Assembly (NCBI GenBank): GCA_963205185.1
Contig: CAUJHZ010000069.1
Location: 1 to 35,576, forward strand
DNA: 35,576 bases
Source: Planctomycetota bacterium
Lineage (GTDB): Bacteria; Planctomycetota; Phycisphaerae; Phycisphaerales; UBA5793
Direction: 5' to 3'
Shown here: positions 2,215-20,308 of the stretch, one piece after another
Position numbering within the stretch: position 1 is the stretch's first letter
Layout of the letters: each line of letters begins with the position of its first letter
The notes under the pieces: generated by a model
The model's input: only the letters and a program-made list of their open reading frames with translations
Database searches by the model: none
What the model was told of the DNA's origin: nothing
Program-made: the position numbers and the translations under genes

Positions 2215-2229
2215 GATGCGGCTCCTTTT

Positions 2230-3218: not shown

Positions 3219-3229
3219 CAATGAACCTC

Positions 3230-3733
3230 TTACGTCAGGGCCGCGGATCGGCGGCCGATCAGGCGGCGGGCGGCGCACAATCCGATGGCGATCGCGTCGG
3301 CCACGTCGGGCGGGTGCGGCATCTCGCGCAGCCGGCACTGGGCCTGCACGGCAATCTGCATCTGTCGTTTGCTGGCGTGCCCGTTGCCGGTGATGGACTT
3401 CTTGATCTCGGTGGCGCCGAGTTCGTCGATTTCGATGTTCCGCTGGCGGGCGGCGAGGAGGATGACGCCGCGCGCGTGTCCCATCTTGATGGCGGTTGTG
3501 GGGTGCGCGTAATGGGCGTAGAGTTTTTCCACCGCCATGCAGTCGGGCCCGAGTTGATCGAGTATTGAGCCGAGGTCAGTCAGCAGTTCGACGAGGCGGT
3601 TGGAGACGGGCTCGGAGGCGGTGAGGCGGATGACGCCGGCTTCGATGAGCGTGGGTTCGGCGCGGCCGGGCTTGAGTTCCACGCACCCGTAGCCCGTCAG
3701 TCTCAACCCGGGATCGATGCCGATGATCCGCAT
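3230..3733 (-). CDS. ruvC: Crossover junction endodeoxyribonuclease RuvC
   Basis: 167 residues, the usual RuvC length. It resolves Holliday junctions as a dimer with the RuvAB motor. All four acidic catalytic residues can be placed: Asp7 in MRIIGIDPGLRLTGYG, Glu69 in AVEKLYAHYA, and Asp143 and Asp146 in PPDVADAIAIGLCAA. The family stretch KKSITGNGHASKRQM (111-125) is present. The start ATG at 3733 lies 6 bp after the ABC ATPase stop and has AAAGG close upstream. ruvA and ruvB are not in the window; instead it is paired with yqgF, another RNase H-fold nuclease. Confidence 0.95.
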   Translation of the reverse strand: MRIIGIDPGLRLTGYGCVELKPGRAEPTLIEAGVIRLTASEPVSNRLVELLTDLGSILDQLGPDCMAVEKLYAHYAHPTTAIKMGHARGVILLAARQRNIEIDELGATEIKKSITGNGHASKRQMQIAVQAQCRLREMPHPPDVADAIAIGLCAARRLIGRRSAALT

Positions 3734-3739
3734 GCGCCT

Positions 3740-4543
<804 letters not shown>

Positions 4544-4607
4544 GCAGCCAAGTGTACCGGTGAAGCGGCATTCAGGTTCGACGCAGCGGGAGATTCAGAG
4601 CCTCACC

Positions 4608-4958
4608 TCACGAGTCGGCGTCGGCCGCCAGTTGCAGGGCGGCGAGCGCGCTGGCGGTGTCTTCTTCCTGGTGGAAGAGGCGGTCGAGGTGCGTCACTTC
4701 GAGCACGGAAGCGATACTTGAGTTGATCGAGCACAGGCACAGCCGACCGCCGCGGCGGCGCGCCGCTTCGCGGACGCGCAGCAGCTGGCTGATGTTCGAG
4801 CTGTTGAGAAATCCCACGGCGTGAAAATTGAGTACGACATCGCGCTGGTCGGCGCGCGCTTCGAGCCGCTCGGCCAGGACGAGAAGATCATCGCTCAGGA
4901 GCGGTTCGTTCTGGAGATCGACCACCAGAACCTGCTCCGACCACTCATGGATCGCCAT
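4608..4958 (-). CDS. STAS-domain protein, anti-sigma-factor-antagonist like
   Basis: 116 residues forming a single STAS domain: strand VLVVDLQ, helix SDDLLVLAERLEARA, strand DVVLNFHAV, then GFLNSSNISQLLRV, which matches the SpoIIAA-type loop and helix. Ser53/Ser54 occupy the place of the phosphorylated serine. Next come GGRLCLCSI and HLDRLFH, the usual last strand and helix. In characterised systems such proteins bind a kinase/anti-sigma factor and are switched by serine phosphorylation. No cognate kinase or sigma factor is adjacent. AAGGG lies about 5 nt before the ATG. It begins 49 bp after the gyrA stop, so read-through from gyrA is plausible. Confidence 0.8.
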   Translation of the reverse strand: MAIHEWSEQVLVVDLQNEPLLSDDLLVLAERLEARADQRDVVLNFHAVGFLNSSNISQLLRVREAARRRGGRLCLCSINSSIASVLEVTHLDRLFHQEEDTASALAALQLAADADS

Positions 4959-5007
4959 ACCAACCCTTGTCCGGACTCTCGCTCGGGCGGCAAGTCAGCG
5001 TGGACTG

Positions 5008-7593
5008 TCAGCCTTCGTCGTCCTCACTGTCTGATTCGACAACCTTTGCCACGGCGATCAGGCGATCGCCTTCCTTGAGGCTCGTGACGCGAACCCCCTG
5101 GGTGTTGCGCCCGATGCGGCTGATCGATCTGGCCGCAATGCGCACCACCATCGCCCACTCGGTCACCAGCAGGACGCTGTCCTCTTCGCGCACGGCCAGA
5201 ATAGCCACGCTCCGGCCGTTGCGCTGCGAGACCCGAATGTCGCGGCGACCTTTGCCGCCCCGCGACTGCACACGCGTGGTGCCGTCATCGGACTGAACCA
5301 GATATTCGGCCATTGCGGTCCGTTTTCCGTAACCAAACTCGGTTACGGTAAGCAGATCGCACGAATCGTCGGCGATGATGAGGCCGATGACGTGATCGCC
5401 CTCCTCGAGGTTGATGCCCCGCACCCCGGCAGCGGTGCGGCCCATGACGCGCACATCCTGCTCGTTGAAGCGGATGGCCATCCCGTTGGCCGTGGCCAGC
5501 AGCAGGTCGTTCTCGCCGGAAGTCAGCACCATGCTCATGAGTTCATCGCCCTCGCGCAGACTGATGGCGATGATGCCGCTTCGATTGACGTTGCGATAGT
5601 CTTTGAGCGCCGTGCGCTTCACCGTGCCGTTGGCCGTGGCGAAGACGAGGTAATCCTCGCGCTGCTCGAAATCCTTGACGGGAATGAACGCGCGGACCCG
5701 CTCGCCATCGCGCAGGTCGATGTAGTTGACGATGGGGCGGCCCTTGCTCGTGCGGCCCATCTCGGGCGCCTCGTACACCTTGATCTTGAACATGCGGCCG
5801 GTGTCGGTCAGGCAGAGCAGGTCATCGTGCGTGGAGGCCACGAACAGGTGCTCGATGAAGTCGTTGTCCTTCTTCTCCGAACCCTTGATGCCGCGCCCGC
5901 CGCGTCCCTGCTCGCGGTAAGTGTCCGCCGGCAGGCGCTTGATGTAGCCTTCGTGGCTGATGGTGAGAACGACGTCCTCCACGGCGATGAGATCGGCGTC
6001 GTTGATGTCCTCGGCGGACTCGACGATCTTGCTCCGACGGACATCGCCGTACTTCTCGCGCATCTCGATCACGTCTTCGCGGATGATGTCGAGCACGAGC
6101 CGGTGGTCGGCGAGGATCGCTTCGTAGCCCTCGATCTCGCCGACGATCGCTGTGTAATCGCCGGTAAGTTTTTCAATCTCCAGCCCGACGAGTTGGATGA
6201 GCTGCAGGCGTCCGATCGCCTCGGCCTGGACCCTGGTCAGCGCGACACCGTCGGCCGCGCGGGCCAGCAGCTTGCGCGGGATGCGCGGGGCATACTTGTG
6301 GTCCGGCGGAATCTGGAAGCGCCGCTCCATGAGCCGGTCGATGGCTTCGTCGCGCGTCGCGCTGCTGCGAATGAGCCTGATGACTTCGTCGATGTCGCAC
6401 ACGGCATAGATCAGGCCCTCGAGAATGTGGGCCTTCTTGCGCGCTTCCTTGAGCAGGTGCGACGTGCGGCGGCGGATCACTTCCACCCGGTGATCGACGT
6501 AGCAGTCGATCATCTGCCGCAGCGTCAGTGTGCGCGGCTGGTGGTTGACCAGCGCGATGTTGATGATCGAAAACGTCGATTGCAGCGGCGTGAACTGGTA
6601 GAGCTGGTTCTCGACGATCGCCGGATCGGCGCCCTTCTTGAGTTCGAGCACCACCCGAGTGCGGCTCTTGCGGCCGGATTCGTTGCGGATCGCCGAGATG
6701 TCCTTGATCCGGTCGTTCTTCACCGCGTCGGTGATCTTTTCAATGAGCGAGTTCTGCACGAGGTGGTAGGGGATCTCGTCGATGACGAGCTGCTGCCGGC
6801 CGCCGGGCCGATCCTCCACGTGCACCACCCCGCGCACCACGGCCCGGCCGCGCCCGGTGGCGTAGGCGGCGCGAATGCCGCTGCGGCCGCAGATCATCCC
6901 ACCCGTGGGAAAGTCCGGACCGGGCACGATCTCCATCAACTCGTTGAGCGAGATCTCAGGATTGTTGATCACCGCCTCGATGGCGCGGCAAATCTCGCCG
7001 AGGTTGTGCGGCGGGATCGAACACGACATGCCCACCGCGATGCCCGTCGATCCGTTCACCAGCAGGTTGGGGAACTTGCTCGGCAGGACGACCGGCTCCT
7101 GGCGCGTGTCATCGTAATTGGCCTTGAAATCGACCGTGTCGAGTTTGAGATCCTCGAGCATGTCGCCCGAGGCTTCCGTCATGCGCGCTTCGGTGTAGCG
7201 CATGGCCGCCGGCGGATCGCCGTCGATCGAGCCGAAGTTGCCCTGCTTGTCCACGAGCAGGTAGCGCATCACCCAGTCCTGGGCGAAGCGAACGAGCGTG
7301 GGGTAGATGACCGCCTCGCCGTGCGGGTGGTAGTTGCCGCTCACGTCGCCGCAGATCTTGGCGCACTTGCGGTGCTTGGCGCGGGCGCCGAGATTGAGGT
7401 CGTTCATCGCAACGAGGATGCGCCGCTGCGAAGGCTTGAGACCGTCACGGGCATCGGGCAGGGCCCGGTCCATGATGGTGCTCATCGCGTAGGTGAGGTA
7501 CGAATCCTGCAGTTCCCGTTCAATGTTCAGATCGACGATCTGATCCGGATTCGGCTGGTCGGGAAGCAGGGGGGCGGTGGGGGTTTCAGCCAT
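5008..7593 (-). CDS. gyrA: DNA gyrase subunit A
   Basis: 861 residues. It forms the cleavage-religation core of gyrase with GyrB (not present here) and introduces negative supercoils. The winged-helix domain carries [12 protein letters not shown] (49-60), the HPHG motif (89-92) and catalytic Tyr133 in [11 protein letters not shown]. The C-terminal beta-pinwheel starts with a GyrA-box QGRGGRG (562-568), which favours gyrase over topoisomerase IV. A second box-like QSRGGKG is at 776-782. The tail ESDSEDDEG is acidic, as in some gyrases where it tunes activity. At the quinolone pocket, E. coli Ser83 and Asp87 correspond to Ala94 and Pro98. The Shine-Dalgarno is weak; a possible TATTAT -10 box lies about 75 bp upstream. 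Confidence 0.95.
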
Positions 7594-7665
7594 GAATGGA
7601 GGGCCTCGATCGGTCGCTTCTGGACCTGAAAACCAGTGCCCGCGACGGGAGGCGCAGGCTCATGG

Positions 7666-7671
7666 ATAATA
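7666..7671 (-). promoter_or_regulatory. Possible -10 box for gyrA
   Basis: TATTAT on the minus strand lies in the 137-bp gap between the tlyA-like stop and the gyrA start. No good -35 hexamer is present at 16-18 bp, so this is a weak call. The rest of the gap shows nothing else. Confidence 0.25.
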
Positions 7672-7730
7672 GGCCCGGCAACGTGGTTTTTCGCTGTGCA
7701 GGGCGAGCGAAATCGGCCCGCCGAAGGGCG

Positions 7731-8345
7731 TTATTCGAACTCGCCGGCTGCGCCCAGAAGCGCGAGAAACTCGAGGTTTCCGCGCCGCCCCTTCGACGCC
7801 CCGCCGCGAACCGGAGACACCACCAGACCCAGCACCGGCGCGATGGTTGCCGCCAGATCGTCAGCGACACGGCGGGCTATTCGCGCGGCGTCGTCATCTT
7901 CGAGCACGCCGCGCTGCAGAGGCTTTCGGCCGCGATGTTGCCCGCTTGCGGATTGCTCGTAGTGGGGTTTGATGAGCGTGATGATCCGCCCCTCACTTCG
8001 TCCACCCAGCCAGCGCAGCGCCGCGGGCACGATCAGACGCTGAGGGGTCCACCCCGCATCGATCACCACCAGATCCACCGGTTCATCGGGCGGCGGGGCA
8101 TGCAGTGCGTTGGTGCGCTCCATGACCACAACGCGCCCGTCGCGCCGCAGGTTGTAGTCGAGCATTCCGTAGCCGGTGTCTACGGCATAAACGCGTCGGG
8201 CGCCGTGTCGCAGCAGGCAATCGGTGAAGCCGCCGATGTTGCAGCCGAAATCCGCCGCGACCAGTCCGGTGCAATCCACTCCGAACTCGCGGAGGGCGTG
8301 TTCGAGCTTGAGCCCGCCGCGCCCGACGTAGGGTCCTTCCGCCAC
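7731..8345 (-). CDS. TlyA/FtsJ-like RNA methyltransferase without S4 domain
   Basis: 204 residues. VGRGGLKLEHALREFGVD (7-24) is the TlyA linker just before the methyltransferase domain. The SAM-binding motif DFGCNIGGFTDCLL (32-45) follows, then ARRVYAVDTGYGMLDYNLR and VVVMERTNA, all characteristic of TlyA 2'-O-ribose methyltransferases. LVVIDAGW and TLIKPHYEQ supply the Asp and Lys of the K-D-K-E type catalytic set. TlyA proteins normally have about 60 N-terminal residues forming an S4 RNA-binding domain; here the protein starts right after it, and no S4-like reading frame is joined upstream because lpxI ends only 6 bp away. It may therefore act on a different RNA or need a partner. It is in an operon with lpxI. 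Confidence 0.8.
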   Translation of the reverse strand: MAEGPYVGRGGLKLEHALREFGVDCTGLVAADFGCNIGGFTDCLLRHGARRVYAVDTGYGMLDYNLRRDGRVVVMERTNALHAPPPDEPVDLVVIDAGWTPQRLIVPAALRWLGGRSEGRIITLIKPHYEQSASGQHRGRKPLQRGVLEDDDAARIARRVADDLAATIAPVLGLVVSPVRGGASKGRRGNLEFLALLGAAGEFE

Positions 8346-8351
8346 GGCCGA

Positions 8352-9197
8352 CTACTCGATCCCCACGATCGCGACGCCGAGTCGATTCGCGGCGTCGATG
8401 ACCTGCGGTTTGTCGATCAGGATGACGCGTCCGACGCCCAGCGCGACAGCCCGGCCGCCCGCCGCGTGAAAGCGCTCAATCGTCTCCACGCCGATGGTGG
8501 CCACATCCGCGCGCATGTCGTGATCGCGCGCGGAAGCCTTGAGCAGCAGCCAGGGCCGCCGGCCGCAGATGGCGCCGGCGCGATCGATCATCCCGTTGGT
8601 TCCTTCGGCCGCTTCCACGGCGATGACATCGCGCCCGCGAACGGCAATGGCCTGCCCCACGCCCAGCGCGAGCACCTGTTCGAGCAGCGGCCAGCCGAAA
8701 TCGATGTCGCGCTGCAATTCGGCGGTGGGGGAGGTGCGCGTCATCAGTCCCCGCGACGCGAGATGATCCGAAATGTACGTCCGACTGTCGATGAGCGTCA
8801 CTCCATTGCGACCCAGTTCCTCCGCCAGCGCCGTGAGGACGGCCGGAGTGCGCCGGTCGTGGCGCAGATAACGATACCACAGCAAGATGGCCCGCCAATC
8901 CGGCGGGTGGCGCAGGAACTGAAGTCGGGCAAACTTCCGCTTCTGCGAGACGCGGCCGACCATGATCGCTTCGCGCACCTGCCACTTGTGGAACGTGGAA
9001 ATCCACCGGCCCAGGCTCGTCAGACCCACCTCGCGGAACGAATCGCAATGCCCGGGCAGAGCCGCATCGAATTGACCTGCCAGCCCGATCGCCGCGACGC
9101 GCCCGCCTGCCGCGCGGATGCCGTCCGCCACGAGCAGGGGAAGCCTGCCCTGGCCGGCAATCAGGCCGATGCTGTCAAGCGGTTTGCGCCCGGACAT
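8352..9197 (-). CDS. lpxI: UDP-2,3-diacylglucosamine pyrophosphatase LpxI
   Basis: 281 residues. It hydrolyses UDP-2,3-diacylglucosamine to lipid X in lipid A synthesis, replacing LpxH. The N-terminal domain begins IGLIAGQGRLPLLVA (10-24). The catalytic domain has KRKFARLQFLR (86-96), the helix around ELQRDIDFGWPLL (160-172), AIAVRGRDVIAVEAAEGTN (183-201) and the late motif with Asp231 in DMRADVATIG. The usual EGTD motif reads EGTN here. No Shine-Dalgarno is seen; a TAACAT -10-like hexamer ends 6 nt before the ATG, so the mRNA may be leaderless. Its presence implies a lipid A-bearing outer membrane. Confidence 0.9.
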   Translation of the reverse strand: MSGRKPLDSIGLIAGQGRLPLLVADGIRAAGGRVAAIGLAGQFDAALPGHCDSFREVGLTSLGRWISTFHKWQVREAIMVGRVSQKRKFARLQFLRHPPDWRAILLWYRYLRHDRRTPAVLTALAEELGRNGVTLIDSRTYISDHLASRGLMTRTSPTAELQRDIDFGWPLLEQVLALGVGQAIAVRGRDVIAVEAAEGTNGMIDRAGAICGRRPWLLLKASARDHDMRADVATIGVETIERFHAAGGRAVALGVGRVILIDKPQVIDAANRLGVAIVGIE

Positions 9198-9290
9198 GTG
9201 CCAATGTTAGCGACCGCCGGCGTGGCAACGAAAGCGGGGGCCGGCGCTGGGCCGACCCCCGGGGAACGATTGATCTCGCCGCCAGAGCGA

Positions 9291-10106
9291 TTACGGCGCG
9301 TAATTGCGCGAGAGGTGCAGGTAGCGGAACCCGCCGCTGGTCATGATCGTGCGGACCAGCGTGCCGTCGAGGCCGTACTCATACAGTCCCGAGTTGCTCG
9401 ACACGAGCAGGTTGCCGTTGCCGGCCTGGATGATGCCGCGACCCGACCCCGTGATGGGGAACGTGGACTCCACGGTGCCGCTTGGCGTAATGATCGTGAC
9501 ACTCTGCGCGGTGAACCCGACGACGGCCACGCGCGGGCCGTTGGTCGTGTTGATGAGCGTCGCCTGCTCGGGGAAATCGATCGTGCCGTTGGGCAGTCCG
9601 CCGATCAGCTGGCCGCTGAGGTTGTAGACATCCACCGTGTCATCGCCGAGATCGCTGGCGACGAGGCGGTTCTGCACGTAGAACACGTCGAAGAAGTCGC
9701 CGGGGATGTTCTGTGAAAGGACATCGCCGTTGCGGTCCCAGGCGTAGATGCCCGAGGCGGCGGCGCCGACGACATAGCCGTTGGGCAGCAGGTTGATGCC
9801 GCGCAGGTTATCGACGGGGGCGCTGATGTACTCGCCGATGAGCGAGCCATTCGCATTCATGTGCCAGATCGTGTCGCCGGACTGGTCGCTCATGAGCAGC
9901 GTGCCGCCGGGGCCGTCGATCACGGCGATTCCCAGCGAGGAGAAGCTCACATCGAAAGTGCCGAGCGGATCGCCCGTCATGCGGTCGAGCACCTGAACGG
10001 TATCGGCCGTCGCGTCGTTCATGAGGATCACCTGTCCGGGGGCGACCGAGCCGGCCGCAAAGGTGAACGCCGCCGCGACAAATCCTCTTGTCATGCATTT
10101 GAACAT
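9291..10106 (-). CDS. Secreted single-domain beta-propeller protein
   Basis: 271 residues from ATG 10106, chosen because AAGGAG lies 11 nt upstream and a signal peptide follows directly (MTRGFVAAAFTFAAGSVAPGQ). The mature part is built of repeated four-strand units with motifs such as TVQVLDRMTGDPLGTF, GTLLMSDQSGDTIWHM, GYVVGAAASGIYAWDR and GNLLVSSNSGLYEYGLDG, as in YVTN/NHL-like propellers. It aligns along its length with the C-terminal half of the HAF-repeat protein at 20309-22126; shared wording includes the ends GGFRYL and GGYQYL. No catalytic residues are evident. It is probably an exported binding or structural protein. It stands alone, with 182 bp upstream free of genes. Confidence 0.7.
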   Translation of the reverse strand: MFKCMTRGFVAAAFTFAAGSVAPGQVILMNDATADTVQVLDRMTGDPLGTFDVSFSSLGIAVIDGPGGTLLMSDQSGDTIWHMNANGSLIGEYISAPVDNLRGINLLPNGYVVGAAASGIYAWDRNGDVLSQNIPGDFFDVFYVQNRLVASDLGDDTVDVYNLSGQLIGGLPNGTIDFPEQATLINTTNGPRVAVVGFTAQSVTIITPSGTVESTFPITGSGRGIIQAGNGNLLVSSNSGLYEYGLDGTLVRTIMTSGGFRYLHLSRNYAP

Positions 10107-10288
10107 ATCTTTCACAACTCCTTGCGTGACTCCGAAGTCGCGCTCGCGGCACCTGCTCGTGCTGCCTCTCAGCACGGCCACTCAGGCGCTCGGTTCACAA
10201 GCGAGGAGCTTCGTCGTCCTCAGAGCCAGTATACCGGAATGGGAAGCGAAGTGCGCGCCGATTGAGAGGGCGCGGGTGGAAATCATGG

Positions 10289-10834
10289 TCAGCCGAGGCG
10301 TTCGATCGCCTGCTCCGGCTCGCTTACCACCTCGAGAAGGGCGACCACATCGGCCGTCATAAAGCCCTCATCCACACCGCGCTGCAGCATGGCAATGAGT
10401 GGATCGAAGTATCCATTGACGTTGACGACAATCAGCGGCTTGTCGTGGTCTTGCAATTTTCGGGCCACGAGCATCTCGAAGAGTTCTTCATACGTCCCCA
10501 CGCCGCCGGGCAGGGCGATGAACGCGTCGGCCAGTTCCTCCATGCGCTGCTTGCGAATGCGCATCGTCGGCACGATTTCGAGTTCATCGCAGGTCTCGCG
10601 GGCGTACTCGAGCGCTGCCAGCTTTTCGGTGATGATCCCATGCACGCGCCCGCCGTGGCGGTGCACACTGTCGGCCACGCAGCCCATGAGCCCGAAACTC
10701 CCGCCGCCGTACACCAGCATCAGGCCCGAGCGCGCAATAGCCCGGCCGAGCCGTTCGGCCGCGTCAAAGTAGACGCGATCGAGGTCCTGGCTCGAAGCGC
10801 AATACACGGTGACCTGGTGGATGGCGTGAGGCAT
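10289..10834 (-). CDS. LOG-family protein (nucleotide 5'-monophosphate phosphoribohydrolase)
   Basis: 181 residues from ATG 10834; the frame stays open upstream but that sequence is low-complexity and the family begins at VTVYCASS. The Rossmann-like fold shows LMLVYGGGSFGLMG (39-51), then MRIRKQRMEELADAFIALPGG (91-111) and the signature PGGVGTYEE (109-117), with the Arg and Glu used by LOG enzymes. Characterised members cleave the N-glycosidic bond of cytokinin ribotides or other nucleoside monophosphates, once misannotated as lysine decarboxylase. No Shine-Dalgarno is evident. It lies 52 bp downstream of the metallopeptidase gene. Confidence 0.85.
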   Translation of the reverse strand: MPHAIHQVTVYCASSQDLDRVYFDAAERLGRAIARSGLMLVYGGGSFGLMGCVADSVHRHGGRVHGIITEKLAALEYARETCDELEIVPTMRIRKQRMEELADAFIALPGGVGTYEELFEMLVARKLQDHDKPLIVVNVNGYFDPLIAMLQRGVDEGFMTADVVALLEVVSEPEQAIERLG

Positions 10835-10886
10835 CGCAGTCGGAACAATCAGAGGCGATCTTAGGCCCGCCGCCCGACCGGCCGAC

Positions 10887-11954
10887 TCACGGCTCTTGCA
10901 GTTGCCGCCGGGCCAGAAACGCCGCGATGATCTCATCAACCGCTTGCGCGGCGGGGGTGGCCTCGGTGAGATGATGCCGCCACGCCGGCCGAACGCACGC
11001 CGCCGCCTCGGGCACCTTGTCGTAATAGCCGGCGGCATCGCCGTAGTCACGGTGAGTGTCATCGATGAATCGCCGCACCGTTTCACCCGCCTGCACGAAC
11101 ATCAGCGTGTGCGGCACGTCGCGCCAGGCTGCGTCCGTGCGAGCCACGCCGTTGGCGACGAGTCGGCCGCGCAGCAGCTGTAATGCCGTGTCCTGCGATT
11201 GCGTGGCAAGATCAAGCGCGTGAATCGACTCGTGCAGCACAACTTCATCCAGCAGCGAGCCGCTCGCGTGCTCGACGCCGACGAAGCAAACGCCGCCTCC
11301 GCCGCGCTGACGGTGGGTAAACCCGCCCGGCGCCGGAGACTCGGCCACGAGGTAGACCGGAATCGTCAGATCACTCACGGTCATCGCCAGCGCGGTGGTG
11401 ATGAATTCGTAGCACTCGTCCTGCCTGGCGAGGAGATCGTGCGCCAGCCCCAATCGTGCCTGCTCGATCTGCTCTCGATGCTGCGGCCAGACTGCCTCCA
11501 TGAACGCAGGTTCGACTTCGGCGTAGGCGGCGGCGAGGCGAATGGCGCCCTCGCGCAACCTCACCGCGCCGCCGGATGCGGGCTTGAACGACTCGGGCAG
11601 ATTGCCGCACGCCGCCATGGCGTCGGCGGCTGATGCGTAGCCGGCGAGGAGCGGTTCGATGAGCCCCCAGCCGCGCTCACCGCCGAGATCGGACTCGAGT
11701 TGTGCCGCGGCATCGATTGCGGCGTCGAACTCATGCGCCGCGTCGCCTTCCGCGAACGCATGGCCGCGCGATTCCAACGGTTGATCGCCTTGCGCCCGCA
11801 CGTAGAAATGCAGGTCGATGAACGAGTTTGTGCGCAAATCCAGGCGCACTGATCCAGATGGCGAGGCGGCGCGGGCGCCTTCCTGGGCCTCGACGGGGCC
11901 GCTCAGCAGGACCAGAAGCAGAATGGAGATGAGCGGGCGGGCGGATCTTTGCAT
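10887..11954 (-). CDS. Secreted HExxH metallopeptidase-like protein
   Basis: 355 residues from ATG 11954, which has GGAGAG 8 nt upstream. The signal peptide is SARPLISILLLVLLSGPVEA (4-23). The zinc-binding motif is HESIHALD (241-248); Glu291 in QAGETVRRF is a candidate third ligand. The sequence GGVCFVGVEHASGSLLDEVVLHE before the motif is typical of peptidases whose fold puts a long strand ahead of the active-site helix. Substrate and MEROPS family are not clear. Its upstream region, shared divergently with the next plus-strand gene, contains the first dif-like repeat about 127 bp from the start. Confidence 0.6.
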   Translation of the reverse strand: MQRSARPLISILLLVLLSGPVEAQEGARAASPSGSVRLDLRTNSFIDLHFYVRAQGDQPLESRGHAFAEGDAAHEFDAAIDAAAQLESDLGGERGWGLIEPLLAGYASAADAMAACGNLPESFKPASGGAVRLREGAIRLAAAYAEVEPAFMEAVWPQHREQIEQARLGLAHDLLARQDECYEFITTALAMTVSDLTIPVYLVAESPAPGGFTHRQRGGGGVCFVGVEHASGSLLDEVVLHESIHALDLATQSQDTALQLLRGRLVANGVARTDAAWRDVPHTLMFVQAGETVRRFIDDTHRDYGDAAGYYDKVPEAAACVRPAWRHHLTEATPAAQAVDEIIAAFLARRQLQEP

Positions 11955-12079
11955 CAGCGGAACTCTCCCCAAGTGCTGGATGTGGCGAGTATATGGAAGC
12001 GAGCCCGTTGCTCGCCGGGAGAGCCGGCGATGGATGGGTTGCCCGCGCGACCTCGGAAACTGGAGCCCTATCCGGCTCT

Positions 12080-12107
12080 GCTTAACATAACATGTATGCT
12101 CACTGAG
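12080..12107. other. dif-like recombination site, copy 1
   Basis: Reading the plus strand, an 11-bp arm GCTTAACATAA is followed by spacer CATGTA and arm TGCTCACTGAG. The first arm matches the XerD arm of canonical dif (ATTTAACATAA in this orientation) at 9 of 11; the second arm is poor. Bases 12081-12097 are identical to 13350-13366. The site also opens a 50-nt foldback with GTTAGGT at 12123-12129. It is AT-rich in a GC-rich setting. Confidence 0.4.
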
Positions 12108-12151
12108 AATGTAATACGTTACGTTAGGTCCGCACAGGCGCGAGGTGTGTG

Positions 12152-12784
12152 ATGTTATATTCATCGTTCGATGATTTCTACGTGCAGGTGTTCAAGGAAT
12201 TCGATCGGAATGGTGCGAAGTGGGCACTGCTTCGGCGGTGGGAGTTTCGAGGGGTGGACGAGGGCGACGTGGTTGATGCGTTCCATGATGAGATGGTATG
12301 GGTGGAGCAGCAGTGGGAGCGTGGGCGTGATGTTACGGTAGAGGCGTTCAAGGGGGAGACGCCGTCGCAAGTGTGCGCGTGGTTTAGGTGGGCGGCCAAT
12401 CGGCGGTTGGTCATGATCGTTTCGAATCGGTGTCGACGCGTGAGTGCGTGGCATCGATACGTGGCTAGGTACGGGAAGTACCGGCTCGAGGAAGCCGGGG
12501 GGGGCGGGTGGAGTGAGGGGTGGGACGGTGTTTGTCCTGGCTGGCTTGTGAGGGCGATTGGAAGCGTGTACGGCGATGTGCTGTGGCGGGTTGCCGTGTG
12601 CGGCGACTCGGAGCTGGAGTACGCGGTTCGTGAGCAGCTGTCGTCGATTGAAGTGCGGCGCCGGTATCGTGCGGCAAAGCAGGTGTGCCGCGATCTTCTG
12701 TGGCCGGGGTGTCAGGGGTCGCCGGGGTGGGTTGGCGTGCCTGAGGCCGTCAGGGAGCGTCTGCGGCGTCTGACGGCCGCGTAG
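12152..12784 (+). CDS. Hypothetical protein, weakly like sigma-70 region 2
   Basis: 210 residues from ATG 12152 (a GTG at 12149 is also possible; GAGGTG lies just upstream). I do not recognise the family. Two stretches recall ECF sigma region 2: GVDEGDVVDAFHDEMVWVEQQ (about 33-53), in the place of the DAEDLVQETF helix, and CAWFRWAANRRLVMIVSNRCRR (about 75-96), in the place of the FRxWLxxIARN...RR helix. No region-4 helix-turn-helix is obvious in the rest, which is rich in Trp and Arg and ends RERLRRLTAA. Codon use is heavily G-skewed. It is the main gene of the repeat-bounded module. It could be a divergent regulator, or this resemblance may be chance. Confidence 0.55.
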   Translation: MLYSSFDDFYVQVFKEFDRNGAKWALLRRWEFRGVDEGDVVDAFHDEMVWVEQQWERGRDVTVEAFKGETPSQVCAWFRWAANRRLVMIVSNRCRRVSAWHRYVARYGKYRLEEAGGGGWSEGWDGVCPGWLVRAIGSVYGDVLWRVAVCGDSELEYAVREQLSSIEVRRRYRAAKQVCRDLLWPGCQGSPGWVGVPEAVRERLRRLTAA

Positions 12785-12850
12785 CGGGCAAGATGGACCA
12801 TCTCGCGGGGGCGGGTCGAGCGGGCGTCGAGCGGAAGCTCCGACCGCCGA

Positions 12851-12877
12851 ACCGCCCCCTCTCTAACAAGGGGCGGT
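12851..12877. terminator. Perfect 8-bp GC hairpin after the module's first gene
   Basis: ACCGCCCC (12851-12858) pairs fully with GGGGCGGT (12870-12877) around an 11-nt loop, 66 bp past the stop at 12784. There is no T-tract, so it may terminate weakly or belong to the structured stretch that follows. Confidence 0.4.
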
Positions 12878-13085
12878 GAGTGAAGCGCATAGCGGGTGTG
12901 TTGGCGTCGTAAGTGGTTGGTTTTTCAGACGCTTGGCGGTTTCACTCTCTCTGACGCTCGATCCGGGCCCCAAACCTCACCCTGACCACCTGCGTGAGGG
13001 GGTTTTCGCCGATTGGCAAATGATTCTCACGCGGGTGGCCTGGGTGACTGCTGGGTCCGCGGCTCGACGCCGCCGGGCCCAGTCG
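12878..13085 (+). other. Hairpin-dense non-coding stretch
   Basis: Three more foldbacks follow in sequence. GAGTGAA (12878-12884) pairs with TTCACTC (12941-12947), with GCGTC/GACGC nested inside. A 13-bp stem with one mismatch joins 12986-12998 and 13026-13038 around a 27-nt loop. CTGGGTCCG near 13051 can pair with CGGGCCCAG near 13078. No convincing gene occupies this part. A structured RNA or single-stranded DNA folding element is possible, but GC-rich sequence forms such stems readily. Confidence 0.3.
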
Positions 13086-13120
13086 AGGGTGCTGTGCCAG
13101 CCGATGACGTGCCAGGTCAG

Positions 13121-13276
13121 ATGTGGCTATTCCCGGACTGGATGAGGTGCCAGCGTTGCGGGTGTCCGATGCGGCGGGGATGTGCGTTCTATTGCTCGAC
13201 GCGATGCCGGGTGGCCGCGTGGCGGGCAAGGCGGCGGGCAGAGGTTATACCTGGCGAATCTCGTTCAAGCGGTTGA
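13121..13276 (+). CDS. Small zinc-finger protein (51 aa)
   Basis: From ATG 13121 the product begins MWLFPDWMRCQRCGCPM and continues with FYCSTRCRVAAWRARRR. The CxxCGxP...YCSxxCRxxAWRxR arrangement is a small zinc-binding motif seen in short proteins and near DNA-binding or mobile-element genes; four cysteines plus a basic helix suggest nucleic-acid contact. The frame stays open to a TTG at 13013, but the added 36 residues show no conserved feature and that start falls in a hairpin loop. AGGT precedes the ATG. It lies 73 bp before the second dif-like repeat, inside the repeat-bounded module. Confidence 0.5.
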   Translation: MWLFPDWMRCQRCGCPMRRGCAFYCSTRCRVAAWRARRRAEVIPGESRSSG

Positions 13277-13348
13277 GGTCGGACGTCCGATGGGAGTACC
13301 ATGTGTAGGGGTGGTCGGCGTGGCCGCCCCAAGTCTCTGACCAGCGGC

Positions 13349-13376
13349 ACTTAACATAACATGTATTATAGGACGA
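13349..13376. other. dif-like recombination site, copy 2
   Basis: The plus strand shows arm ACTTAACATAA, 6-bp spacer CATGTA, then arm TTATAGGACGA. Compared with E. coli dif in the same orientation, the first arm matches ATTTAACATAA at 10 of 11 and the second begins with the conserved TTAT. The 11-6-11 layout is right for XerC/XerD. It is the better of the two copies. The 119 bp between it and the stop at 13496 holds no other feature. Confidence 0.45.
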
Positions 13377-13495
13377 TGTACCAAGGCCGCGAAACGGCAG
13401 GGGGCTGAGGCCGGCGATGCCTCGTACGTTGCTGCAATTGCCAGACTTACGTCGCAATCCACCGGTGGCTTCGTCCGAGGCCCTGGCACATGGCT

Positions 13496-15811
13496 CTACT
13501 CGATCTGCGTCTCCACGACGTTGCTTACGGCGGCACGCTGGGCGGCCTGGAACCAGACCGTCCTCGGGTTGATGTTGGGGATCGGAAGCGTCCATGTGAC
13601 AGTGCCGTTGGCATCAGTCATCTTCGGGCTGCCCGCCTGGGTCGGGTTTCGCAGCCCGATCGTCACGTTGAGCTGAGGCACGTACGTGCTCCCCAGGCCC
13701 TGCAGGCTGTAGCCGAGGTGTGTCTGCTCATTGGGCCAGGCGCAGGTGACGGTGAATCGGCCGGTCTGGCCGCCGATGAGGCGGCTGACCGCGAGTTGCG
13801 GCTGGCCGAGATTGCACTCCTGGTAGATCAGCGTGACGGTCGCGGTGTTCGAGTCGCCATTGGGGTGCGTCCAGCGGAAGGTCAGCGAGTCGGTGCCGGT
13901 TGCGTTCGGATCCGCCTGACAGACGCGGTACGGCCCGGGCGTGGTCGAGATGATCGTGGACTGACTCGGCGGCGTGAGGATCTCGTATCCCAGGCTCGAC
14001 GAGAACTGATTGAACGAGCCGGGCAATTCGAGCAGGAACGGCTCGCCCGCCAGGACGTATTTCGTAAAACTGTGCGCGATCGGCGTGATCACCGTCGGCT
14101 CACCTGGATCATCCCACACAAATTCGTGGAGAGGCTCCGTGCGAACCTTGCGGCCGTCGGTGTAGAGCACCTCGCCCTGCACGTAGACGTCGCCGGCACC
14201 GAGCGTGGCGCCGTAGATGAGAATCGGCTCGAATGGTTGCGTCGTGGCTCCGAGCACGCGGCCGTTGAGAATGACGCGAAACTCGGCGATCGGCGTGCCG
14301 AACCCTTCGACGGTAAAGTTGAACCGGCTGTCGTAGTTGCCCGCGGCACGGTTGCAGCTGATCGATGCAGTGCGGATGTTGTTGTTGATCATGATGCTGC
14401 CCACCCACCGGCCGGTGGCGCGCACATCCGAATCGTCGTACGCGAGCACGCGCAGATCGTGATAGCCATCCGCGTATCGGCGCGTGTCCAGTGAGAAAGT
14501 CCGATTGCGCGCGACGGATTGAACGAGCACGCCGTCGATCAGCAGGTCGAAATGATCGATGCGCGCCGTCGGGTGGCTGGTCGTGGCGGTGGGAGTCAGC
14601 GTGATCACGCCGGAGACGGGGTCAACCGGCGCATCAGCCACATCCACCTGCGGAATGTACGTGAACGGCTGAGTGATCGGGTCGCCGAGCAGGAGCAACT
14701 GATACGGGATGTAGGCGACGCTGCGCAGCACCGACTCGCCCAGCGTGAGTCCCTGGTAGTAGTACAGCTGCATCCGCGCCTGCGGGAACTTGCCCGGGTA
14801 GTTGCACGGCTCTTCGACGGTGCCGGTGGTGCCGCTGGCGCCATTGGCGATCCAGCGCGACATCTTGGTCTGCGAACCGTTGTCGAACGTGCCGGCGTAA
14901 CTCGTCAGATGGTCGCAGTAGGCGCCGGGCAGGATCGTCATGTTCGCGCCTTCGATGTCGAGCGTGGCAGCGCCGGTAAGAATGCCCATCACATCCTGCT
15001 CGCCCGTGGGCAACGGATCACAGCAGCGGTTCTCCGCCTGCCCGCCGCGCGCGAGGATTTCGCTGACAATGATGGGATACAGCCCGTCGCGCGGCCCACT
15101 TCGCGCCACGTCGTTGGTCTTCATGAAGTAGAACGTCCCCACCGGATGCGTGCCGTCTGCGGCGACGCTGCGATCGATCATGTCGAGCACTTCGCTGACC
15201 GTATTGCCTCGCGTGCCCGTGTAGCCGAGCATGGCGCCGATGAAATAGCGCTCCGCATCCGAGCGCTCGCTCGGTTCGCCGCTGAACCAGGCGATGTTGC
15301 TGTCAAAGCCGATGGGCACGTTGCTGGCGCTGAAATAGCGATTGGTGCGCGTGGAGAAGTTGCCCCCCACCCGGACCGAATCCGTGATGTGGGCCATCGT
15401 GAATGCCGAACTCGTTGCAAAGCGCGTCACCGGCGAGCACGAATCGCTCACCAGGCCCGGGGCGCTGACGAAAAAGTCGCTTCCAGGCGCGACCACGATG
15501 TAGTCGATGTGGTCGCCGAGCTGGCGGTTGGCCAGCGCGCCGAGCAGCGCGCTGACGTTCTCATCGGCGAACTGCTGATAGTTGGCCGTCGCCGCCGTCA
15601 GATAGAGGACGTTGCTCTCGGGGATGTCGCGCCGGAGGCGGTAGTAGTTGCCCACCAGCAGCGAATCCTTGTCCATCGGGTTGATGATGAGCAGGACGTT
15701 TTCCGCACCGCCCGACGCCAGGCAGGGTGAGGCCGCCGGCATCACGAGCCCGGCCCCCACTGCGATCGCGTTTACGACATATCGGACCCGCGTGCGACTG
15801 AACCAGCCCAT
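13496..15811 (-). CDS. TIGR03790-family secreted protein with extra C-terminal domains
   Basis: 771 residues from ATG 15811, preceded by a GGGGAGGGGAG Shine-Dalgarno. The N-terminus is basic then hydrophobic (VNAIAVGAGLVMPAASPCLASG), an export signal. ENVLLIINPMDKDSLLVGNYY, then RRDIPESNVLYL, HIDYIVVAPGSDFF and a late ILPGAYCDHLTSYAG are the TIGR03790 pattern, a family of unknown biochemical role with a caspase/gingipain-like layout. A beta-sandwich stretch (about 400-560) and an Ig-like part follow. Residues 669-771 form a domain also found at the C-terminus of the divergent neighbour at 16111. The protein is probably extracellular or surface-bound. Confidence 0.75.
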   Translation of the reverse strand: MGWFSRTRVRYVVNAIAVGAGLVMPAASPCLASGGAENVLLIINPMDKDSLLVGNYYRLRRDIPESNVLYLTAATANYQQFADENVSALLGALANRQLGDHIDYIVVAPGSDFFVSAPGLVSDSCSPVTRFATSSAFTMAHITDSVRVGGNFSTRTNRYFSASNVPIGFDSNIAWFSGEPSERSDAERYFIGAMLGYTGTRGNTVSEVLDMIDRSVAADGTHPVGTFYFMKTNDVARSGPRDGLYPIIVSEILARGGQAENRCCDPLPTGEQDVMGILTGAATLDIEGANMTILPGAYCDHLTSYAGTFDNGSQTKMSRWIANGASGTTGTVEEPCNYPGKFPQARMQLYYYQGLTLGESVLRSVAYIPYQLLLLGDPITQPFTYIPQVDVADAPVDPVSGVITLTPTATTSHPTARIDHFDLLIDGVLVQSVARNRTFSLDTRRYADGYHDLRVLAYDDSDVRATGRWVGSIMINNNIRTASISCNRAAGNYDSRFNFTVEGFGTPIAEFRVILNGRVLGATTQPFEPILIYGATLGAGDVYVQGEVLYTDGRKVRTEPLHEFVWDDPGEPTVITPIAHSFTKYVLAGEPFLLELPGSFNQFSSSLGYEILTPPSQSTIISTTPGPYRVCQADPNATGTDSLTFRWTHPNGDSNTATVTLIYQECNLGQPQLAVSRLIGGQTGRFTVTCAWPNEQTHLGYSLQGLGSTYVPQLNVTIGLRNPTQAGSPKMTDANGTVTWTLPIPNINPRTVWFQAAQRAAVSNVVETQIE

Positions 15812-16110
15812 GACTCCCCTCCCCTGCTGATCGTTTGGCCATCCCGCCCGCGCCCCAGCCCGGGAGCCGGCGGCGGCAAGAACAAGATACACGCAATTGC
15901 CGTGTTTTGCATGAGCAAATGCCTGTTTTTCGGAACGATTGCGCCATTTCGACGGCTGCCGAAGGTCGCCCGTCGCTCGCTCGGGCGACCGATCGCTTCG
16001 GCTTTACGCTCGATTTGGACACGAACCGCTTCGGATCCCCTGAAAATCCGTTATGATGGGTCCACCGGCTTCAGACGGTTGATCGATGTGGCCGGCCAAG
16101 GAGGAATTCG
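15812..16110. promoter_or_regulatory. Divergent intergenic region with a perfect 9-bp hairpin
   Basis: This region separates two divergent secreted-protein genes. GGTCGCCCG (15964-15972) pairs exactly with CGGGCGACC (15982-15990) around a 9-nt loop, midway between the two starts. It could be an operator-like palindrome or a structured leader. TATGAT at 16052-16057 is a possible -10 box for the plus-strand gene but lacks a matching -35. No gene is evident. Confidence 0.35.
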
Positions 16111-18708
16111 ATGCTGCTACGTCGCTCTGTCGGTCTGTGCGCAGCTCTGGCTGCGCTGCTGCCCCTGTGGATCGGTTGCGCCAGTCGGGACGCGTCTCTC
16201 GGGTCGGACGAGTCGGAGCGGCTCGAGCACGACGAGCCGCTCGCCGCTGCGCGCTTCCGCTACCAGCAGCGCCTCAGCGAAGACGGCACGATCCCGGCCA
16301 ACGCTCTCATGCGGGCCAAGAACCAGCGCGATCGGCTGCTCGACAACCCCCTGGATGGCGCCGGCATCTCACCTGATGCCTGGACATGGCTCGGGCCCGG
16401 CAACATCGGCGGTCGGCTGCGCGCCGTCATCATTCATCCGAGCAACCCGAACACGATGTGGGTTGGCTCGGCGAGCGGCGGCGTCTGGAAGACCACTGAC
16501 GGCGGCGCGTCCTGGTTTCCGCTCGATGACTTCATGCCATCGCTCTCCATCGGCTGCATGGCCATCGATCCGACCAATCCCGACGTTCTCTACGCGGGCA
16601 CCGGTGAAGGCTTCTTCGACACGATCGACGGCTCGTCCAACACCGCGGCCATTCGCGGCGCGGGCGTGTTCAAGACAACCGATGGCGGCACGACGTGGAA
16701 CCAGCTGCCCAGCACCGCCAATGAGGACTGGTACTTCGTCAACCGGCTCGTCGTCGATCCGAGGAATCGGGACACCATCTACGCGGCCACGGCGAGTGGG
16801 ATCTATCGCACGATCGACGCCGGCGCCTCCTGGACGCGCACGGCCAGTTTCGGCACGCTGGACATCCGCATCGATCCGAACGATTCATCGCGCCTCGTCG
16901 CAGGCGGTGATCACCACGATCCGGGACCGTACTACTCGGCCGATGGCGGCTCGACGTGGCAAACCGCAACCGGAATTCCTGCGCCCGATCGGGTGGAACT
17001 GTCCTACGCACCCGCCACGCCGAACATGGTGTACGCCTCGGTCAGCGACGGCGGAACGATCCGCATCTATCGATCGGTTGATGGCGGCGCGACATACGCG
17101 CTGCGCGGCAGCAGCATCGGAACCTACTCGGGGTACAACAACACGATCTGGGTTGATCCGCTCAATTCGGAAACGCTGGTCGTGGGCGGCATTTACATCT
17201 ATCGCTCGACCAACGGCGGAACGTCGTCATCTCGGGTCTGGAACGGCATGCATCCGGATTTCCACGTCGTAGTGAATCACCCGCAGTACGACGGCTCATC
17301 CAACCGGACACTCTTCATCGGACACGACGGCGGCATCAGCCGCGTGCCCGACGCCTATGGCTCGTCCTACACGAATCTGAACAACAACCTCGGTGTGACT
17401 CAGTTCTATGGCGTGGCAGTCAGCGCCAACGGCAGCGTCGTCGTGGGCGGTACGCAGGACAACGGCACGCTGCGCTACGCCGGCAATCCGCAGGGATGGC
17501 AGATGACCTTCGGCGGCGACGGCGGATTCTGCGCTGCCGATCCGGCTGATCCGAACTACCTCTATGGCGAGATCTACTACTCCCAGATCTTCCGCTCGAC
17601 CAACGGCGGGCAGAACTGGTCGTACATCCACAGCGGCATCAGCGACACGAACCGCGCCAACTGCAACTTCATCCCCCACTTCATCATCGACCCGAACAAT
17701 GCCAACCGCATGCTCTCGGGCTGCCGGCGGCTGTGGCGCACGAACAACGTCAAGGCCGGCTCGCCAACCTGGACGGTGATCAAGCAGGCGATTGGCTTCG
17801 GCCCTGAGCCCGATCCCTTCGCTACTCCCCTGCCGCAGGATCACTTCGCCGAGAACGATCCGCGCAACATCAGCACCATCACCGTCGCGCCCGGCGATTC
17901 GAATCGCATCTACGTCGGGCACAACAATGGCCAGATCTACCTGACCAGCAACGGCCAGGATGCCTTGCCGGACTGGACGCGCATCGACACCCTGGGCAAC
18001 ACGAACCCGCCGGCGCGCTGGGTGTCGCACATGGTCGTTGATCCGACCAATCCCAACATCGTCTACGTCTCGTTCATGGGCTGGGAGGCGGACAACATCT
18101 GGATGTTCGACGTCGCCCAGGGCCGGTGGACGGCCATCAGCGGCACGGGAGGCGACTGGCCGCTGCCCAGCGCACCGGTCAGTGCACTCGAAGCGCACCA
18201 GACCATGCCCGGCTGGATCTATGCCGGCACCGACATCGGCATCTTCACCTCGACGGATGGCGGTGCGACGTGGTCCGCTTCGACGCAGGGGCCGGGCACC
18301 GTCCCCATCGACGAACTGCTGTGGAAGGATGCGTCAACGCTCGTGGCGGGTACGCACGGCCGCGGCGCGTTTCTCGCCGATGTCAGCCTCGAAATCACTC
18401 TGCTCGATCCGGTGCCCGGAATCGCCGGTCAGGAGAACCGCCTGACGACGACCAACGGCACATCCGGCCGGCGCGTGTACTTCATCTACAGCCTGCGCGG
18501 CGGCACGACCAATGTGCCCGGCTGCAACGGCGTGGTCGTGAACATGAGCCAGCCGACCATCGCCGGCGATGCCATCGTCGACGGCAACGGCGAAGCGACT
18601 CTCAACCTCAACGTGCCGCAGGCGGCATCGGGGCGGACTGTGCGCATCCAGTCTGTCGAACGCGCCACGTGCCGGGTGAGCAATCTCGTGCAGTTCACGT
18701 TCCAGTAG
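16111..18708 (+). CDS. Secreted Asp-box (BNR) beta-propeller protein
   Basis: 865 residues; ATG 16111 follows AAGGAGG by 7 nt. The N-terminus MLLRRSVGLCAALAALLPLW ends at IGC, so a lipoprotein is possible, though Trp at -3 is a poor lipobox. The body contains at least eight Asp-box motifs of S/T-x-D/N-x-G-x-x-W/Y type (TTDGGASW, TTDGGTTW, TIDAGASW, SADGGSTW, SVDGGATY, STNGGQNW, STDGGATW), each following an hPxNPxxhyhG strand. This is the sortilin/VPS10-sialidase-like propeller family without sialidase catalytic residues. Residues 760-865 share a domain with the TIGR03790 protein. Its stop is 3 bp from the convergent nitroreductase stop, with no terminator between. Confidence 0.8.
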   Translation: MLLRRSVGLCAALAALLPLWIGCASRDASLGSDESERLEHDEPLAAARFRYQQRLSEDGTIPANALMRAKNQRDRLLDNPLDGAGISPDAWTWLGPGNIGGRLRAVIIHPSNPNTMWVGSASGGVWKTTDGGASWFPLDDFMPSLSIGCMAIDPTNPDVLYAGTGEGFFDTIDGSSNTAAIRGAGVFKTTDGGTTWNQLPSTANEDWYFVNRLVVDPRNRDTIYAATASGIYRTIDAGASWTRTASFGTLDIRIDPNDSSRLVAGGDHHDPGPYYSADGGSTWQTATGIPAPDRVELSYAPATPNMVYASVSDGGTIRIYRSVDGGATYALRGSSIGTYSGYNNTIWVDPLNSETLVVGGIYIYRSTNGGTSSSRVWNGMHPDFHVVVNHPQYDGSSNRTLFIGHDGGISRVPDAYGSSYTNLNNNLGVTQFYGVAVSANGSVVVGGTQDNGTLRYAGNPQGWQMTFGGDGGFCAADPADPNYLYGEIYYSQIFRSTNGGQNWSYIHSGISDTNRANCNFIPHFIIDPNNANRMLSGCRRLWRTNNVKAGSPTWTVIKQAIGFGPEPDPFATPLPQDHFAENDPRNISTITVAPGDSNRIYVGHNNGQIYLTSNGQDALPDWTRIDTLGNTNPPARWVSHMVVDPTNPNIVYVSFMGWEADNIWMFDVAQGRWTAISGTGGDWPLPSAPVSALEAHQTMPGWIYAGTDIGIFTSTDGGATWSASTQGPGTVPIDELLWKDASTLVAGTHGRGAFLADVSLEITLLDPVPGIAGQENRLTTTNGTSGRRVYFIYSLRGGTTNVPGCNGVVVNMSQPTIAGDAIVDGNGEATLNLNVPQAASGRTVRIQSVERATCRVSNLVQFTFQ

Positions 18709-18711
18709 GAG

Positions 18712-19314
18712 TCAGTCGAGAAAGGCGGCAGGCGATTCCCAATCGCCATCAAAGACGAACTCGTGCAGCGGCTTGCGCGGCCGCGCGGCGGTGTCGCGCT
18801 CGCGATAGTCGCCGGTGATCTGCTCCTCGGGCTTTCGATAGCCGACGGCAATGCCCGTGGCCACTTCGAACCCATCGGGGACGTTGAATGTCTGGCGCGC
18901 TTTGTCGAGATCGACGCCCGCCATCTGGTGCACGTACAGACCGCGAGCCGTGGCTTCGAACGTGAGACTCGCCGCGGCCAGGCCCAGGTCATGCAGAGCG
19001 ACGCGGTTGGGTTTCCCATTGCGGCTGAACGTGGTGCGAATGCATCCCAGCGCCAGCAGGCCCGCGTGCCGGGCCCACTGCTGGTTTGCCTCGAGGAGGC
19101 ATGAGAGGATCCGCTCGAATCCCTCTCGATTGGTGCGCAGGGCCGCGACAAAGCGCCAGGGCTGCTCGTTGTAGGATGACGCTGCCCATCGCGCTGCTTC
19201 GAACAGCGCCAGGGCATCATCCTTCGAGACTGGCCGATCGTCAAACGCGTACGGGCTCCAGCGGCGCGTGAGCAGATCATGAATTGGATGGTCCGGTTGG
19301 GCGATTTTGGTCAT
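18712..19314 (-). CDS. Nitroreductase-family FMN oxidoreductase
   Basis: 200 residues from ATG 19314, with AAGGAA 9 nt upstream. The family opening is clear: IHDLLTRRWSPYAFDDRPVS (11-30) with the Arg-Ser FMN phosphate contacts, then ALFEAARWAASSYNEQPWRF (36-55). LALGCIRTT, HDLGLAAASLTFEATARGLYVHQMAG and the late VATGIAVGYRKP are the FMN-binding and dimer-forming elements. Such enzymes reduce nitro groups, quinones or related acceptors with NAD(P)H; the natural substrate cannot be told from sequence. It is transcribed towards the propeller gene and divergently from the zinc-ribbon membrane gene. Confidence 0.9.
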   Translation of the reverse strand: MTKIAQPDHPIHDLLTRRWSPYAFDDRPVSKDDALALFEAARWAASSYNEQPWRFVAALRTNREGFERILSCLLEANQQWARHAGLLALGCIRTTFSRNGKPNRVALHDLGLAAASLTFEATARGLYVHQMAGVDLDKARQTFNVPDGFEVATGIAVGYRKPEEQITGDYRERDTAARPRKPLHEFVFDGDWESPAAFLD

Positions 19315-19493
19315 CTGTCGATTTCCTTCAGTAGTGATGCTGGCGTATGGTAGTGCGCCCCGCCGAAGCCGAATCCTCTGCAACCGATCTGAGCGGGTTC
19401 CGAACAAGAAGTGCAGGCGAGAGCGCCGAGCGGTACGATGTGAGCCGTGTCTCTGCCCGCGCTGGTGCACCCTGGACCGGGAAGGAGCGGCAC

Positions 19494-20183
19494 ATGCCGT
19501 GGAACCTCTTCGCGGCGTCGACGGACGGACGGTCGATGTGGCTCGATCTGCGCCGGGGGCGACTGTCGTTTTTCGGCCGCCTGGTGCTCAGTGTCGCCGG
19601 CTTCGGCGCAGCGCTTTCGCTGTGCCTGGTGGCGATCGCGATCTCGGCGCCGAACCATCGCGTGCAGGAAGAGGTTGCGATGTCGATCCTCGCGTTCGGC
19701 GCGCTGCTCTGGGTTCTGCTTCTTGCGTGGCTGTGGGTGGGGCACGCGGTCATGGGGCCGCTGCTGCGCGGCCTGTTTGTCGTCGCCGCGATCTGGTTCG
19801 TCGTCATTCTGCTGGCGGTGTTCATCGCCAGCCGCCTGCCCAACGACGAACTTTGGATCGGCGCGCTGATCGTCGCGGGCATCACCGGAACGATCCTCTA
19901 CGTCGCGAGCGTCATCTACACGGGACTGCGCGGCCGGGAGATTCACTCGCATGCCGGGATGGTGAATGTGCAGTGCGCCGAATGCGGCTACTCGCTCGTG
20001 GGCAAGACGGACTGCACCTGCCCGGAATGCGGCAGGCAGTACACCGTGGATGAACTCATCGCTCTGCAGGATTACGACGCGCTGCGATGGCGGCCCGAAG
20101 CCGGTCGCGCCTCCGAACCCGCCGCCCGAGCCGCCGCGCAGGCGCTGCACCGACCCGTGCTGCCGGGCGAGTCGTCGCGCTGA
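19494..20183 (+). CDS. Four-TM membrane protein with C-terminal zinc ribbon
   Basis: 229 residues from ATG 19494, preceded by AAGGAG at 7 nt; the open frame before it is non-coding in character. Four hydrophobic helices are visible at about 24-48, 60-80, 85-106 and 113-136. The cytoplasmic tail carries CAECGYSLVG and CPECGRQYT, a zinc ribbon of the type seen at the contig ends, followed by DELIALQDYDALRW and a low-complexity Ala/Arg tail. The family is unknown. In planctomycetes the ribbon is attached to many small membrane proteins, so it may be a docking module. It ends 18 bp before the tRNA-Gly gene on the other strand. Confidence 0.7.
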   Translation: MPWNLFAASTDGRSMWLDLRRGRLSFFGRLVLSVAGFGAALSLCLVAIAISAPNHRVQEEVAMSILAFGALLWVLLLAWLWVGHAVMGPLLRGLFVVAAIWFVVILLAVFIASRLPNDELWIGALIVAGITGTILYVASVIYTGLRGREIHSHAGMVNVQCAECGYSLVGKTDCTCPECGRQYTVDELIALQDYDALRWRPEAGRASEPAARAAAQALHRPVLPGESSR

Positions 20184-20201
20184 CCGGTGGCGGACATCAA
20201 G

Positions 20202-20273
20202 AGCGGGCGAAGGGACTCGAACCCTCAACATTCAGCTTGGAAGGCTGACACTCTACCATTGAGTTACGCCCGC
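20202..20273 (-). tRNA. tRNA-Gly(TCC)
   Basis: 72 nt. Acceptor GCGGGCG pairs with CGCCCGC; the D-loop has AATGGTAGAGT, the anticodon loop CTTCCAA holds TCC, and the T-arm has GGGTTCGAGTCCC. The 3' CCA is not encoded. Confidence 0.95.
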
Positions 20274-20308
20274 AGGCGGCGATTGTACGCCGCAATCTGC
20301 CCTCGGGT

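Follow-up and report, generated by a model that had tools for sequence, protein, structure and literature searches.

A block of 1,269 bp in the window (the whole stretch of 35,576 nucleotides that was analysed) is most probably an integrative mobile element exploiting Xer (IMEX), that is, a small circle recombined with the chromosomal dif by the host XerC and XerD, and a probability of about 0.87 is given to this reading. Four features of an IMEX were found: the block lies exactly at dif, direct copies of the dif core and an empty site are present, the block has no recombinase of its own and the host encodes both XerC and XerD. The first-pass annotation had proposed a minimal Xer-dependent passenger module without a recombinase; the empty site, the unique repeat and the XerC/XerD pair support this proposal, the use of Xer being its putative part. 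The block and its junctions are composed as follows.

12081 to 13349, plus strand: integrated element of 1,269 bp, absent from the collinear locus of relative G003.
12081 to 12097 and 13350 to 13366: 17-bp direct repeat CTTAACATAACATGTAT, both copies identical and in direct orientation.
12080 to 12096, plus strand: left junction, with the native XerD-side arm GCTTAACATAA (12080 to 12090) and the 6-bp centre CATGTA (12091 to 12096).
12097 to 12107, plus strand: XerC-arm position of copy 1, occupied by the element-derived TGCTCACTGAG, with no recognisable XerC arm on direct reading.
13349 to 13376, plus strand: complete dif (copy 2), 11-6-11 layout.
13349 to 13359, plus strand: XerD-side arm of copy 2, ACTTAACATAA, element-derived.
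13360 to 13365, plus strand: centre of copy 2, CATGTA.
13366 to 13376, plus strand: XerC-side arm of copy 2, TTATAGGACGA, native; the alignment to G003 restarts at 13351.

The arms were named by their similarity to E. coli dif, according to which the XerD side (TTAACATAA) was retained and the XerC side was lost. The XerD arm was the more conserved dif arm in a published survey (PMC3025954). The perfect 17-bp repeat described at first pass was exact in the sequence. The 11-6-11 layout, ascribed there to copy 2, held in full for this copy, which reads CTTAACATAA-CATGTA-TTATAGGACGA and is the chromosomal dif, as had been suspected for one of the copies. The layout did not hold for copy 1, which reads GCTTAACATAA-CATGTA-TGCTCACTGAG and has the XerD-side arm and centre only; relatives carry TTATAGGACGA or close variants where copy 1 has TGCTCACTGAG. 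Position 12080 is G, as in G001 to G004 (GTTTAACATAA), while the right copy has A at this place. This difference indicates that native sequence makes up the left arm as well as the XerC-side arm on the right, and that the element supplied the XerD-side arm on the right and TGCTCACTGAG on the left.

The pattern of native and element arms is the product expected if dif and a circular attP recombine once. We infer that the element had a circular form and that its insertion was catalysed by Xer. In the proposed mechanism a circle of 1,269 bp would cross once with the chromosomal dif, mediated by XerC/XerD. The attP would read ACTTAACATAA-CATGTA-TGCTCACTGAG, having a good XerD-side arm, the host centre and a degenerate XerC-side arm. 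After the crossover, the left side would have the native XerD half joined to element sequence, and on the right side a full dif would be rebuilt. As the element gives the XerD-side arm and the host gives the XerC-side arm, the right junction would again be a full dif, and thus chromosome-dimer resolution would be preserved. Because the flanking sites are unequal, stable residence should be favoured, and the left half site should make excision inefficient, as was shown for Legionella LME-1 (PMC9765430).

The block has a GC content of 63%, similar to its surroundings. Its GC skew of 0.274 was the highest of any 1.27-kb stretch in the window, against approximately 0.00-0.01 in both 4-kb flanks, which confirms the G-skewed block noted earlier; the skew came largely from ORF1 (0.40), the non-coding part showing 0.07. 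The unusual codon use noted at the same time was also seen, with third-position G of 0.54 and C of 0.18 in the block compared to C of 0.36-0.56 in the neighbouring ORFs examined. The block is known from one genome, a draft assembly of 76 contigs. Its genes had no match in 60 relatives, and by DNA search no relative carried it, with two short partial matches only (the host genome and G026). Neither ORF matched a family above cut-off, in line with the two unrecognised genes of the first-pass annotation, and genes for an integrase, for replication or for a capsid were not found. Neither family matching of every ORF nor the six-frame reading gave a recombinase in the block, and no known phage or plasmid gene was recognised in it. 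The two reading frames are given below.

12152 to 12784, plus strand: ORF1, 210 aa from ATG 12152 (211 aa from GTG 12149), no family.
13094 to 13276, plus strand: ORF2, 60 aa, GTG start with GAGGG 4 nt upstream, containing a Cys-finger CxxC...YCSTRCRVAAWRARRR.

ORF1 has a ribosome site GAGGT 5 nt upstream of its ATG and a codon-position GC of 0.67/0.49/0.72 with A3 of 0.07, which is a coding pattern, and its G-ending codons are unlike those of the flanking genes. Searches of 60 relatives, of viral contigs, of phages and of plasmids gave no relative of ORF1, and 392 genomes of the phylum gave marginal matches only (E 0.0009-0.007), which were not credited. The predicted structure was uninformative, with a mean pLDDT of 37. 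A sigma-factor-like helix pattern was considered for ORF1 and set aside, as family searches gave no support. With low confidence, ORF1 may be a DNA-interacting helper. The finger of ORF2 resembles phage proteins in IMG/VR, of the phage primase type and others; its match to PHROG 8643 (E 0.0015) lies below the family cut-off. After its stop codon, ORF2 is followed in frame by an unusual stretch.

The non-coding core between the two ORFs showed strong folding, and parts of it are common to two small elements integrated at tRNA-Glu genes.

12851 to 12888, plus strand: short hairpin with a CTAACAA loop, plus TGAGTGAAGCGC, common to the tRNA-Glu element of G000:C70.
12979 to 13086, plus strand: folded core, with the long imperfect hairpin H1 (about 12979 to 13047) and hairpin H2 (about 13050 to 13085).
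G000:C70:107677-110090 (L082 14229-16642): tRNA-Glu(CTC) element of 2,385 bp (2.4 kb) with 29-bp att repeats.
G001:C72:24142-26347 (L087 9143-11348): tRNA-Glu(TTC) element of 2.2 kb in a congener.

The z score of the RNA fold was -5.6 for 12785-13110 and -6.6 for 12940-13099, and that of the single-strand DNA fold was -3.9 for 12960-13066. The short hairpin matched G000:C70 at 92% over 38 bp (E 6e-8, genome DNA search) and occurs as a variant in G001:C72. H1 and H2 align to G000:C70 without large gaps, and the consensus structure kept 35 of 35 pairs in both the window and C70, six of them with both sides changed. As this consensus was derived from both sequences, each was also folded alone, and the pairs kept were compared with the numbers that random bases in these places would give. 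Of the 35 pairs in the fold of C70 alone, 29 were kept in the window (23.7 expected; P 0.0014); of the 40 in the fold of the window alone, 31 were kept in C70 (27.8 expected; P 0.07). The covariance model R1 found the third copy, in G001:C72, and gave scores of 124, 124 and 116 bits for the core; beyond the genus it gave nothing convincing, and the folded core had no Rfam match above gathering. An integron attC site was rejected for the hairpin on reading, with no GTTRRRY/RYYYAAC pair at its ends.

The tRNA-Glu elements have the same folded core and a version of the CTAACAA hairpin, although the order of the two differs from that in the dif element. They have their own tyrosine integrase and excisionase-like HTH protein, as encoded in G000:C70, with 28-29 bp tRNA-Glu repeats, all of which the dif element does without. 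The G001:C72 element is 97% identical to that of G000:C70 over 325 bp (integrase tail and folded core), and their middles differ. The att repeats of G000:C70 fall inside the end of the integrase gene, and in a circular form the integrase would extend into a further C-terminal tail. No relatives of the C70 integrase were found in viral contigs and phages, no attP-like 19-mer or short-hairpin 24-mer was found in viral contigs, and the unassigned ORF of the C70 element had no similarity to ORF1. From sequence comparison, the dif element and the tRNA-Glu elements probably share the core by descent or exchange. The core would most likely serve as a signal for replication, transfer or packaging, and its sharing suggests that very small elements have such a signal, for replication or transfer, in common. 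A tentative extension, held to be somewhat improbable as it stands, is a family of tiny planctomycete-like elements that share the folded DNA/RNA core and swap integration modules, using either their own integrase at tRNA-Glu or the host Xer at dif through an XerD-half attP.

These contents bear on the strongest competing explanation, namely that the block is what decay has left of a larger phage or plasmid integrated by Xer, the other genes having been lost by internal deletion. The very small size of the block is in accordance with such decay, as are an ORF2 that holds no more than a finger which larger phage proteins also have and the stretch past its stop. However, the element is intact at both ends, ORF1 is an open frame that has a good ribosome site and a coding pattern, the folded core is conserved and the related tRNA-Glu elements are likewise tiny, so decay is a real possibility but the less probable course.

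The reading as an inserted IMEX draws on the relatives of the host. One dif each was found in the same-genus genomes G001, G002, G003 and G004, in the same gene neighbourhood. G003 was the nearest relative examined (a flanking-gene protein is 91% identical), and window positions 2186-11840 and 13351-20281 align to it at 88.5% and 86.1%. Its counterpart is one continuous contig stretch with a single dif and without the block, which is an exact empty site. Thus the empty site to be looked for according to the first-pass annotation is present in G003, with single-dif loci in the three other congeners, and the host xerC and xerD whose presence was to be confirmed are both encoded. The host XerC scored 337.8 bits, above the NCBIfam cut-off, and XerD scored 322.9 bits, 7 bits under it; both also scored in the relatives checked. 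The GC-skew switch at copy 2 that was also to be looked for was not visible, and the skew of sampled stretches of G058, calculated for terminus position, was noisy. That the block is ancestral and was lost from the relatives through Xer deletion between both sites is very improbable: such a deletion would leave an identical single dif, but neither the four congeners that have the site nor the 60 relatives carry the block, and its composition is foreign.

Two further observations concern the surroundings of dif. The gene to its left (window 10822-12080) is present in G000 and G003 and gave no alignment in either G001 or G004; this flank of dif thus varies within the genus. The Sortilin/BNR protein at window 16111-18705 has a C-terminal domain (residues 750-865) with more than 80 relatives in the host and two congeners and 65 in a third, which is likely a shared secretion or surface domain.

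At a tolerance of 3 mismatches, the 17-bp repeat matched twice in the window (0.00 expected) and twice in the entire 4.55-Mb genome of 76 contigs, both times at the block edges. Other blocks with the same repeat, which had been suggested as a check, were absent from the host genome. As the repeat is unique to the locus, its occurrence at many promoters, named at first pass as contrary evidence, does not apply. The least credible account takes the repeat for a promoter repeat, a chance repeat or an artefact of assembly, and not for a recombination site. In its favour, TTAACA in the left copy may be taken for a -35 box located upstream of ORF1; against it, only two sites exist in 4.55 Mb at this tolerance, the block boundary falls where relatives have their dif, and the empty site contradicts it.

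The pattern of XerD arm plus centre, with at most 1 mismatch, matched in 118 of 301 genomes of the order; many of these matches are plainly dif-like, and AT-richer genomes also give chance and control matches. The Lentisphaerae contigs L004, L011, L012 and L016 carry a full dif built in the same way, with the sequence CTTAACATAACATGTATTATGCGACG or one close to it. The Victivallaceae contig L007 has at 740-756 an identical XerD arm and centre followed by CCGTTGCG in place of TTATGCGACG, which is possibly another XerD-half junction; synteny with other Lentisphaerae contigs was looked for and none was found. A dif survey of 2011 predicted no dif in Planctomycetes (PMC3025954). The present locus and its relatives provide a candidate dif for a lineage that, in our judgement, probably belongs there, and the natural insertion is evidence that this candidate is a recombination site. 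An element of 1.27 kb without a recombinase would be near the lower size limit for IMEX. To our knowledge, the block is among the smallest IMEX known.

Among known systems, the PHROG and Pfam search recognised in the block no phage morphogenesis or replication gene, which sets it apart from the filamentous (inovirus) IMEX such as CTXphi and VGJphi. The Acinetobacter dif modules (pdif) are likewise small gene modules between Xer sites without a recombinase, but their sites are inversely oriented, going by the title of Blackwell and Hall 2017 as cited in PMC12907356, whereas the block has two direct copies at the chromosomal dif. Legionella LME-1 uses a 22-bp partial dif as att and has one intact and one modified site, stabilising residence (PMC9765430); the block similarly has a partial-dif att with one intact and one altered site, although LME-1 belongs to a single-recombinase XerL system. 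In the satellite phage TLCphi of Vibrio cholerae the XerC arm is retained, and it is the XerD arm that is degenerate (PMC5357621, PMC4246890). Like the block, TLCphi has no integrase, carries a dif-like attP with the host centre and one good arm, and rebuilds dif. The block departs from the TLCphi pattern by keeping the XerD-side arm, and no TLCphi-like gene was recognised in it. The gonococcal genetic island (GGI, 57 kb) and EludIMEX-1 (29 kb) also reside at dif with one full and one degenerate flanking site, and both keep the XerC side (PMC5357621), in contrast to the block, which at 1.27 kb keeps the XerD side. Retention of the XerD half was not described for IMEX in the literature examined, in a non-exhaustive search. 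This reversed arm polarity makes it testable which recombinase must start the reaction and which arm is dispensable.
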